Of a DNA stretch of 64,000 nucleotides, positions 1,316 to 51,620 are shown piece after piece. Under the pieces are notes generated by a model. The model saw only the letters and a list, made by a program, of their open reading frames with translations. It was not told the DNA's origin and searched no databases. Numbering within the stretch: the stretch's first letter is position 1; every line of letters begins with the position of its first letter. Source of the DNA: Bacteroidales bacterium (GTDB taxonomy: Bacteria; Bacteroidota; Bacteroidia; Bacteroidales; GCA-2748055); contig JAIOZM010000004.1 of the NCBI GenBank assembly GCA_021740585.1, positions 1 through 64,000 on the forward strand, written 5' to 3'. Position numbers and translations under genes: made by a program.

Positions 1316-1517
1316 GCCCGGGTGGCGGAACCGAGCAGCCGAAGGATGAGAGCTACCGCCGAGAAAGAATCAAATAGAAGCATATACGTTCCTTTACAAT
1401 AAAAAATATAAGCGTTGCCCGGGTGGCGGAACCGAGCAGCCGAAGGATGAGAGCTACCGCCGAGAAAGAATCAAATAGAAGCATATACATTCCTTTACAA
1501 TAAAAAATATAAGCGTT
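1316..1517 (+). repeat. Two tandem 101-bp repeats carrying the 5' end of tRNA-Leu
   Basis: Units 1316-1416 and 1417-1517 are nearly identical (period 101; one visible difference, cgtt versus catt near their ends). Each begins with the first 15 nt of the adjacent tRNA-Leu (gcccgggtggcggaa), then diverges into a ccgag...gaagga...ccgccgag block and an A/T-rich tail ending aagcgtt. The intact tRNA starts exactly one period later at 1518. The units therefore look like truncated tRNA copies created by insertion into, and duplication of, the tRNA 5' region. Confidence 0.85.
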
Positions 1518-1603
1518 GCCCGGGTGGCGGAATAGGTAGACGCGCTGGACTTAAAATCCAGTGACCAGTAATGGTCGTGCCGGTTCGATTCCGGCTCCGG
1601 GTA
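1518..1603 (+). tRNA. tRNA-Leu (anticodon UAA)
   Basis: This is an 86-nt type II tRNA. The acceptor arm pairs GCCCGGG with TCCGGGT (G-U at both ends). The anticodon stem CTGGA/TCCAG encloses the loop CTTAAAA with anticodon TAA, which reads UUA Leu. A variable arm of the GACCAGTAATGGTC type follows, and the T arm is GCCGG-TTCGATT-CCGGC. The discriminator base is A1603. CCA is not encoded (the next bases are CAA), so it must be added after transcription. A hairpin and T-run follow at 1634-1660. Confidence 0.95.
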
Positions 1604-1633
1604 CAATTTTTTAGACCATAGACGATGGACAGT

Positions 1634-1660
1634 AGACCATAGTTTGTGGTCTTTCTTTTT
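1634..1660 (+). terminator. Intrinsic terminator of tRNA-Leu
   Basis: AGACCA (1634-1639) pairs with TGGTCT (1647-1652) around a 7-nt loop and is followed by a T-rich run to 1660. It lies 31 nt after the tRNA. A near copy (1856-1861 with 1869-1874, then T-run) follows the pseudo-tRNA, so tRNA and terminator were duplicated together. Confidence 0.6.
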
Positions 1661-1667
1661 GAGGGGA

Positions 1668-1795
1668 GGTGGCGGAACCGAGGACGAAGGACGAGCTCAT
1701 GAGCGCGACGAAGGAGCGCGAGTAATAGGTAGACGCGTCCCGAGGCTTCGGGATGACCAGTAATGGTCGTGCCGGTTCGATTCCGGCTCCGGGTA
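1668..1795 (+). pseudogene. Pseudo-tRNA-Leu with inserted repeat and replaced anticodon arm
   Basis: Bases 1668-1677 match the tRNA-Leu 5' part (ggtggcggaa). A 48-nt insert (1678-1725, starting ccgaggacgaagg) then splits the D arm. The D-arm remainder follows, and the 17 nt of the anticodon arm are replaced by a palindrome (tcccga-ggct-tcggga). The variable arm, T arm and 3' acceptor strand (to 1795) are identical to the real tRNA. With no 5' acceptor strand, a split D arm and no normal anticodon loop it cannot be a working tRNA. Its downstream flank repeats the flank of the intact tRNA, which supports origin by segmental duplication. Confidence 0.8.
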
Positions 1796-1910
1796 CAATT
1801 TTTTAGACCATAGACGATGGACAATACTTGTCTGCCGAAACATTAGCCTAGTTAGAGACCATGGTTTGTGGTCTTTCTTTTTCTACACTTTCACACTATA
1901 TAAAATTTAA

Positions 1911-3186: not shown

Positions 3187-6100
3187 TCCGAAGGTCTCAC
3201 TCCATATTTTACTTTAAAGCACTTACTGAAGTATTTAGGGTTGGTAAAGCCAACCATATAAGCTACTTCAGAAATGCGCAGTTTTTGTTGCATGATTAAT
3301 TGTACAGCCCGATGAAGCCTCATATTCTGTAATAATTCTTTCCCCGATTGACCGGTAATAGTTTTAATTTTTCTGTAAAAATTGGTATGACTCATGCCAA
3401 GAATCTTTTCCATAGATTCAACTGAGAATTCAGGATCCGGAATACCCTCTTCAATAGTTTCAATTAGTTTTTTCAAGAATAATTCGTCGGACGATGTTAC
3501 CGTAACTTCGGAAGGTTCTAACAGTATATTCTTTTGAAATAGATTTCGTAATTGCTCTCTTAATTGCAGTATCTTTTTTATCCGCAGACAAAGATAATCT
3601 ATATCAAATGGTTTGGGTATATAATCATCTGCACCTAATTCAATACTTTTAAACTTTGTTTCTGCATCTACTTTCGCAGTTAATAAAATTATTGGTATAT
3701 GACTGGTCTCAATGTTGGATTTTATTTTAGCGCAAAATTCGAATCCGTCCATTATGGGCATCATAATATCACTGACAATAAGTGATGGAGACTCTTTCAT
3801 TGCAATAGCATGTCCTTCTTGCCCATTAACAGCTTCAAATATTTTATAGTTCTTTGAAAGAACGGATTTTAAATACGACCTCATGTCTGCATTATCCTCA
3901 ACCAATAATATACTCTCGGCATTTTCCGGATAGAGTGGCTCATTTGTTTCGGTAACAGCTGTTTCAAGAGATATCAGCAATGTTGGTGATTTTGTCTGAA
4001 CCTCTTTAGAGACATTTTCTTCGAGCTCGGAGTAAAGAGGTAAATAAAAGATAAAACTAGAGCCAAAACCTTTTTTACTCTTAACATGTATATATCCCTG
4101 ATGAGATTCAATAAGGTCTTTAGTATGAGAAAGCCCGATACCGTATCCCTTCACCGTGCTTTCCGGATCCTGATAAAAACGCTCGAAAATTTTCTCGGTT
4201 TTCTCCTCAGACATCCCTGATCCACTGTCCTGAACTTCTATCATAATATAAAAATCAGTAGCGGGTATAAATGGCAAGTGATTTAGGTTTGTGGCAGGTA
4301 TGGACTCAAAATTAACAGTTATCTCACCTTGTTCAGTATATTTAAGGGAGTTCGATAAAAGGTTGAACAAAACTTTTCCAACGATATCTTTATCAATAAA
4401 AGCGACTATTTTCTCTTCAGGACTATTAATATTATAATTCAATCCTTTATCTTTTATGGCCAGTTCAAAGAGAATGGCTTCATTTTTAATGAATTCAACT
4501 ATTTCAACACTTTTTAGCTTTGGTTTTAGATTTCCGGTTTCAAATTTGCGAATATCCAGTAATTGTTCCACACGATACCTCAGGCGTTTTGCACTCCGGT
4601 TAACCATATCCAACTGACTTCTCAATTCTTCGTTAATTTTCAAATTTTTAAGAATATTTTCAAGAGGTCCTGTTATAAGAGTTAAAGGAGTACGTAAATC
4701 ATGAGACATGTTTATAAAAAACCGGGTCCTTAAATTCTCTAGTTCATGTAAACGCTGATTATGCTCATTATCCAGAATGAGCTGTTTTTTTGTCGCAATT
4801 TTTATTATTGAGAAGTTGGCAAAGTAAAATACAATTAGTCCAAAAGTTAGTATATAAAGGATTACAGCCCACCATTTAAGCCAGAATGGGGTTTGGATAT
4901 GAATAAAAATACGCGCTGTATCATCACTCCATACCCCGTCACTGTTTGTAGCTCTTACTTCAAAAATATATTTCCCAAAATTTAAATTGGTATAATTGGC
5001 ACTTCGCTTTGACGCAGTAGTGGTAATCCAGTCATTATCATATCCGCGCATAATGTATTCATATTGTATTTTCTCAGGATCAGAGAAATATAATGCAGAA
5101 AAATCAAAGCGTAGATCATTCTGGTTAGCTTTTAATATAAGGCTATCTGTAATATCTATCGATTTTAGAAGAATAGAATTACTATTTTCTTTAGAATAAG
5201 GGATAACTTTTTCATTAAAAAGATAAAAATCAGTAATAACTGCAGATGGAGAAAGGGGATTTATACCAATCTCATCAGGGTAAAATACATTAACGCCATT
5301 AATCCCGCCAAAAATGAACTCGCCGTATTCTGATTTAAAGGACGCGTGTTCTGAAAATTCATTGCTTTGGAGTCCATCTGATATTTTATAATTGGAAAAA
5401 GATTTCTTCTCTATATTGAATTTGGAGAGGCCTCCATTTGTTCCTAACCAGATATGACCATCGTCATCCTCCAGAATAGATTGAATCATATTATTTGGAA
5501 GACCATCCTCCATTTTCCAGGTTTTGAAGACAGATTTCCCATTTTCCAAATCAGTTTTAACCAGATTTAAACCTTCATAAGTACCTACCCATAATTGATC
5601 TTTTTTATCAACACAGAGTGAGCGAATATAATTACTACTTAATCTTCCTGGCTCATCTGAGCTGGCTAATAAAGGAATAATTTTCTCTGGAAATTGATCA
5701 TCATCTAGAATTATTTGGTTCAGGCCACCACCTTCAGTTCCCGCCCAAATGGTGTTATTTTTTTTATCATATTTTAGAACACGCGTATTGTTGAAAGATA
5801 TCGCAGGACTTGAATTTTCATCATAAAGAGTCTTCTCAAAGCTATAATCAGAGTTCATTTCAACACGCACAACCCCTGACATTGATGCAATCCAAAAAAT
5901 ATTATCTGACGATCTCTCAATATTGAAGCAAGCGTTATAAGCAAATACATCACTTAGTTGTTTAAATTCGAGGCTTGACACAATTTTCACCTCGTCATTT
6001 TTAATTTCTACCAAATGAGCGCCTGAATTTGTGGCAAGCCAAAGATGATTTTTGTCGACAGGATAAATATGAAAAATAGTGGTTTTATCCAGCCCCATTT

Positions 6101-51179: not shown

Positions 51180-51620
51180 CGCACTTTTTTAGCCCCGTCC
51201 CGATAGCAATCGGGACCACCCGGGCAGGAGACCAGACAAGCATCCCCAAGCCCGGAGGGCTTATTCAGTTAAACCCCATCCGGGTTTATAAATTTTTACA
51301 TGAATTGGATTCCTGGACAAGGGGCATCTCCGACAAACCGGAAATAGCCGTCCTGCGTTCGTAGCACGCAAATATCGATATCACTTTCGATAGAAATAAG
51401 TCCTTTTGCCATCGTAGATGGCAAATATTAATCATATTAAACAAAATAATTTTACCTGAATAGATAAAGTAGTTAGATACCGAGGTTTAAATTCATTATT
51501 GCACGCCCTACGGGGTGCTTACGAATATGCTGTACATATTCTTATCGATATTTACCTCCTACGGAGGCAGGAGTGTTTTTTCAATAAAATTTACCAAAAT
51601 CAGCTTAGCCCGGAGGCGGA
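51180..51620. repeat. Palindrome-rich intergenic region
   Basis: No gene is seen from 51107 to 51706. The stretch holds gtcccgat-agca-atcgggac (51197-51216), a copy of aagccc-gga-gggctt (51248-51262, also at 45073-45087), an imperfect gcacgcc...ggggtgc hairpin near 51501-51517, and a cctcctacggagg palindrome near 51560. The family resembles the palindromes of 44951-45088 and the one inserted into the pseudo-tRNA at about 1737. It lies between convergent transcription units (T9SS protein and the SusD end). Confidence 0.5.

Follow-up and report, generated by a model that had tools for sequence, protein, structure and literature searches.

The insert that interrupts the second copy of tRNA-Leu(taa) in the window is probably a copy of a mobile DNA element, non-autonomous and 34-62 nt long, that occurs in Bacteroidia and spreads by the mechanism proposed below. 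The window is the whole 64,000-nt stretch analysed here; it comes from contig C40 in a draft genome of 4.23 Mb and 139 contigs. Dispersed double-hairpin DNA of about 50 bases seemingly forms a hitherto undescribed family in Bacteroidota genomes, and no description of such an element in this phylum was found in open-licence papers.

All features of the window locus lie on the forward strand. Two 101-bp direct repeats, 99% identical, precede the intact tRNA-Leu(taa) (1518-1604; found by ARAGORN and scoring 57.7 bits with Rfam). These units were reported in the earlier note, which had the first one start at 1316; repeat comparison placed them at 1315-1415 and 1416-1516. Each opens with TGCCCGGGTGGCGGAA, i.e. 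one base and the first 15 nt of the tRNA, and the first unit continues with an AACCGAG-type insert and a new leader. On the 3' side of the intact gene come a terminator-like hairpin with a T-run (1634-1660), a 9-nt remnant of the tRNA 5' region recognised by its homology to the intact gene (GGTGGCGGA, 1668-1676) and, as the earlier note had seen, a 48-nt insert in the D arm of a downstream copy (1677-1724). This insert, delimited by family patterns and genome searches, splits the broken copy between GGCGGA and ATAGG and reads ACCGA-[GGACGAAGGAC]-GAGCTCATGA-[GCGCGACGAAGGAGCGC]-GAGTA. Its two hairpins, identified by covariation, occupy 1682-1692 (G, GA, C-GAA-G, GA, C) and 1703-1719 (GCGC, GA, C-GAA-G, GA, GCGC). 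The remainder of the tRNA, from D-loop to 3' end, follows at 1725-1797 and a second copy of the terminator-like hairpin at 1856-1882. Within this remainder, the palindrome TCCCGAGGCTTCGGGA (1738-1753) stands where the 17-nt anticodon stem-loop would be, a replacement that had also been noticed before and for which a further tRNA remnant offers a parallel (see below). Since this palindrome breaks it, homology to the intact tRNA on the right of the element is as short as 13 nt; it picks up again at 1754, positions 1754-1826 being a 99% repeat of 1562-1634 at the 3' side of the intact tRNA-Leu(taa). The tRNA trailers (1608-1640 and 1801-1830) display heptamer-like repeats (TAGACCA TAGACGA TGGACAG). 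Chance or an assembly artefact is an unlikely source of this layout because locus L206, from another genome of the window's family, shows an intact tRNA-Leu(taa) followed by a copy into which the element is inserted at the identical D-loop position. In genome G011, the tRNA-Leu(taa) locus is arranged as in the window, with a 195-nt exact repeat on the right.

The family consensus was A^ACC-GA-[hairpin 1]-GA-GCTCAY-GA-[hairpin 2]-GA-RTA^A. The anchors ACC, GCTCAY and RTA are fixed, and both hairpins are framed by GA...GA with stems that compensate. Covariation was assessed on 107 rows, 98 of them distinct, with nested parses and flanks below 15 nt excluded; a few of the rows are alternative parses that overlap on a single copy. 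In 91 of the 98 distinct parses hairpin 1 had a Watson-Crick or wobble first pair, and hairpin 2 formed its first two pairs in 82, against means of 48.8 (maximum 61) and 22.6 (maximum 36), respectively, in 2000 shuffles that take the copies as unrelated and ignore their relatedness. All four pairs (GC, AT, CG and TA) were used in the stems, and the Y of CAYGA covaried with the R of GARTA (T-A 50, C-G 39, T-G 6, C-A 3). Conservation of the anchors is partly an effect of sample selection, since the early patterns, up to the 395-genome search, spelled out parts of them (the latter also the A before CCGA, which the looser 20-genome pattern left free); the stems are free of that bias. Triloops were GNA in 56 and AAA in 10 of 79 cases, base composition leading one to expect about 9% GNA. 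The DNA hairpin GCGAAGC, with its sheared G-A pair, is described as extraordinarily stable (PMC6582339). Tandem GA and GNA loops are present on one strand only and, because this is the non-coding strand in three protein genes (mfd, a mutY-like gene and a DUF3795 gene), single-stranded DNA rather than RNA is favoured as the functional form. DNA folding z-scores of five single elements (-0.4, -0.5, -2.9, +1.0 and -2.6) were unremarkable in three.

Two RNA-based identities were considered and set aside. The string CUCAYGA...GAR resembles the core motif of hammerhead ribozymes but departs from it at one essential core base, and Rfam returned no family matching the element in the loci scanned and no group II intron RNA core within it. 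The first matches outside tRNAs lay in intron-like DNA, which raised the possibility of a group II intron fragment, yet the element is a separate unit since intron-like copies occur without it (L065, L067) and simple insertions are found elsewhere. The label 'group II' for this DNA is tentative: the maturase hits behind it, of 22.3 and 22.8 bits, are weak and lie under the Pfam cut-off of 23.

Examination of insertion sites revealed A^A as the target, GA^AT being its commonest full form, with A at both ends. Among 68 non-redundant flanks, AA preceded CCGA in 60, A followed GARTA in 63, and GAA and AT occurred together in 20. The proposal that a repeated element type aims at a fixed point of tRNAs was borne out, but not a specificity for tRNA-Leu: A^A, often as GA^AT, was also hit in T-loops, heptamer repeats, group II intron-like DNA (L030, L061 and L054) and protein genes. 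Wherever filled and empty sites were compared, the difference was the element alone. In the congener G001, mfd contains a 51-nt element in frame (17 codons, no stop) that is missing from the window's genome; other relatives have the shorter length, except G003, where the match was split. A CTTGAT...ATCAAG repeat exists in both filled and empty copies within G611, and in G761 copies are nested inside hairpin 2 of other copies. G011 has in-frame copies of 42 nt in the DUF3795 gene and 39 nt in the mutY-like gene. In G008 two different elements (53 nt, and 55 nt with a leading A) were each identical at two unrelated sites. A spanning ORF was found for 5 of 99 copies versus 41% of random positions, which indicates that insertion within genes is mostly selected against. 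Folding of the flanks, after rows 26, 48 and 52 were left out and the rest collapsed to 44 sites, revealed no general preference for hairpin loops (17 of the 44 versus 31% of control positions). A look for an empty site of L202 in relatives was uninformative, conservation there being limited to the left flank. Several sites had further peculiarities: elements of G008 often lay within other heptamer repeats (TTACGAA, TGTAGAA); at L054 (G011:C126, about 1500-1770) group II intron-like sequence directly follows a tRNA-Cys terminator and carries the element in its apparent domain I; and at L025 (about 3900-5255) the 3' end of a protein gene is repeated after the intact gene, and this duplicate bears the element as in the tRNA cases.

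In the window's own genome, 16 of the 20 matches lay in DNA whose flanks read as tRNA-derived (the exceptions being on C33, C55, C89 and C93). The element interrupts either the T-loop (TTCGA^ATCC) or the D-loop of tRNA-Leu (GGCGGA^AT), and an intact tRNA copy is nearly always retained beside the interrupted one; for the elements on C100 and C117, inspection of the vicinity revealed none. At 14 chosen loci the extent of homology with the intact tRNA was measured. It reached 5-19 nt to the left in 12 of them, a range partly forced because five of these 12 are D-loop sites, where no more than 14 nt of tRNA are available on that side; the right side reached further, mostly through the tRNA 3' end. 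The two remaining loci were L189, with 37-40 nt of homology on the left and its intact tRNA-Cys downstream, and L201, with two tandem elements. Repeated units also occurred: behind the intact tRNA-Ser of G000 stand at least three near-identical tandem units of 107 bp, and G785, which belongs to a different family within the class, has two 118-bp units carrying T-loop elements after its tRNA-Thr(ggt). At L050, L051 and L052 the terminators behind the two tRNA copies differ. An empty-site copy was found within 600 bp of 20 of 106 elements, most of these 20 being tRNAs, versus 27 of 505 random positions.

The palindrome in the anticodon arm is distinct from the element: it is more general and fills hairpin positions elsewhere too. 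The form TCCCGA...TCGGGA occupies the anticodon-arm position in the window and in the tRNA remnant on C100 (26.3 bits to the tRNA model, under the cut-off), and TCCCGA-6-TCGGGA was recorded at 10 places in the window's genome. Likewise, CCTGTCTGCCGACAGGCAGG was located in a T-loop and TTCGCCGCGGCGAA in a tRNA-Cys remnant. About half of the 25 matches of G008 use the latter and CCCGAC...GTCGGG, or close variants, for hairpins 1 and 2. Hairpin arms thus appear exchangeable, since the same palindromes fill tRNA remnants and element hairpins. Another palindrome, TCCCGATAGCAATCGGGA, lies at 51198-51215 of the window.

As pointed out earlier, the inserts upstream and downstream of the intact tRNA both begin with CCGAG directly after GGCGGAA. 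The conclusion that one element type had hit this point more than once holds for the downstream insert; kinship of the upstream insert could not be established. The 101-bp units have only AACCGAG, placed identically in the D-loop, in common with the element, and although their insert matches 18 of the 22 anchor positions, 44 of 400 shuffles reach that score.

Relatives of the element beside other tRNAs, for which the earlier note had suggested a search, were found in the window's genome and in other genomes. BLAST of the window's genome returned related pieces beside tRNA-Arg, tRNA-Ser and tRNA-Leu(caa), and a first pattern matched 14 places there. A gapped pattern (AACCGA-gap-GAGCTCANGA-gap-GARTAA) occurred in 16 of 395 sampled genomes of the class, the window's own included, its reversed control giving a single match in all 395. 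The looser pattern, run on 20 genomes picked for bearing the element, matched 20 times in the window's genome, 25 in G008, 12 in G011, 12 in G761, 9 in G578 and fewer in the others, and its reversed form had no match across the same 20. The exact pattern of one sub-type occurred in 2 of 393 genomes of the order, and a similar sub-type pattern with one mismatch allowed in 4 of 61 relatives, own genome counted in each case. Since elements adjoin other tRNAs in several genomes, the absence elsewhere that the note had named as a counter-argument does not apply. Among named records, a T-loop-specific pattern matched MAGs labelled Chitinophaga pinensis, Salinivirgaceae and Crocinitomicaceae; genome taxonomy was taken from such records and from kinship labels, and the main genomes are drafts. 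The surroundings of the element in the first of these (L050, CAMAZH010000017.1) are identical to G005:C17, which was placed in the window's family, and its Chitinophaga pinensis label may be wrong. One match in viral contigs (L102) was atypical and possibly due to chance. A high-copy repeat of G031 was rejected as a member: it shares AACCGAGGACRAAGGACGAGCTCA and lacks the AYGA...GARTA half. This repeat of about 120 bp is present in more than 20 copies (L137-L140), with AAACCTGAGTTCGA inverted ends where readable.

We propose that the element travels in the form of folded single-stranded DNA, aided by a protein provided in trans, and would land at 5'-GA^AT-3' within replication or repair gaps, the T-loops of tRNAs and the D-loops of tRNA-Leu presenting this target. 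A short tandem duplication, starting some 5-19 nt upstream of the element, would keep an intact tRNA copy; as insertion would wreck the tRNA, surviving loci would be those with such a copy. Duplication and insertion together would yield the order seen in the window: intact tRNA, terminator, short tRNA 5' piece, element and tRNA remainder. Further arms of the dead copy may later be filled by other palindromes, as presumably in the anticodon arm of the window. No mobilising gene was identified in the Y1-transposase searches described below. A bolder version, which we hold tentatively and consider a minority possibility, would see a new class of single-stranded DNA mobile element whose GA-framed hairpins have exchangeable arms; on hitting an essential tRNA it would enter together with a copy of the tRNA remainder, leaving the host with a functional gene, and the element's arms would be exchanged with palindromes that are general in the genome and also take the place of arms in dead tRNAs.

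The short left homology, the tandem units of 107 and 118 bp and the unlike terminators behind paired copies would also suit an element serving as att site of tiny cassettes (3' or 5' part of the tRNA, terminator and element), with recombination in an 8-12 nt T- or D-loop core restoring the tRNA. Yet mfd, the CTTGAT repeat and the nested copies gained the element alone, and this origin seems unlikely. Spread via RNA, where a reverse transcriptase (e.g. of group II-like introns) would insert or copy the folded RNA and leave tRNA pieces as by-products of template switching, accords with the copies in structured RNA genes and intron-like DNA and with the 3' bias of the tRNA remnants; we judge it quite unlikely given the non-coding orientation of the structured strand in the three protein genes, the tandem GA and GNA triloops that fit DNA, and maturase hits below threshold.

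A REP-like palindrome moved by a Y1 (HUH) transposase, as in REP/RAYT systems, would have a similar size and single-strand folding, and Y1 hits were obtained in six of seven element-bearing genomes. However, the element was absent from the flanks of all 17 Y1 loci (0/17 in 6 genomes), G578 has nine matches without any Y1 hit, and the anchors carry no GTAG or CGTC tag, which makes this improbable. That no mobile element exists, the look-alike inserts stemming from tandem tRNA duplication with ordinary decay or misassembly, can claim that the genomes are drafts and the duplications real; but stems that covary across 98 distinct parses, the clean contrast of filled with empty sites and anchors common to many genera leave it scarcely credible, and the filled/empty pair of mfd already disfavoured it.

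Compared with known systems, the preferred folded-DNA element would best be read, by analogy, as working like Rickettsia palindromic elements (RPEs) or mitochondrial double-hairpin elements (DHEs). RPEs, of about 150 bp and described in Rickettsia (PMC10969869), are likewise short dispersed palindromic repeats lying in frame within protein genes without obvious transposase, and in-frame copies were observed here in mfd, DUF3795 and MutY-like genes. By description, the element is set apart from RPEs by its 34-62 nt and two GA-framed hairpins; it also lies mostly outside ORFs and, in the window's genome, is concentrated in tRNA copies. DHEs of fungal mitochondrial DNA consist of two consecutive hairpins of tens of bases, are considered mobile and occur both between genes and within genes for structural RNAs (PMC10085805, PMC2800124). 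Covariation and filled/empty sites revealed two hairpins in a short mobile unit here as well, a likeness by description with elements that are mitochondrial; GA frames, GNA loops and a GA^AT target are not reported for DHEs in the accessible text of those two sources. REPs, palindromes tagged with GTAG or CGTC, are small and bacterial and some lie in ORFs (PMC3733652); the present element differs in having two hairpins and no such tag in its anchors, and no Y1 gene was found nearby. It resembles MITEs in being short, non-autonomous and repeated, but it starts with ACCGA and ends with GARTA, has no terminal inverted repeats, and duplicates at most A or AA of its target.

In-frame palindromic insertions have hitherto been a Rickettsia puzzle. 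A second bacterial family, whose target is defined, whose stems covary strongly and for which congeners provide a clean filled and empty pair, makes the movement of these small hairpins testable in other bacteria, and it implies that tRNA genes can be hit in their most conserved loops yet retain a working copy.
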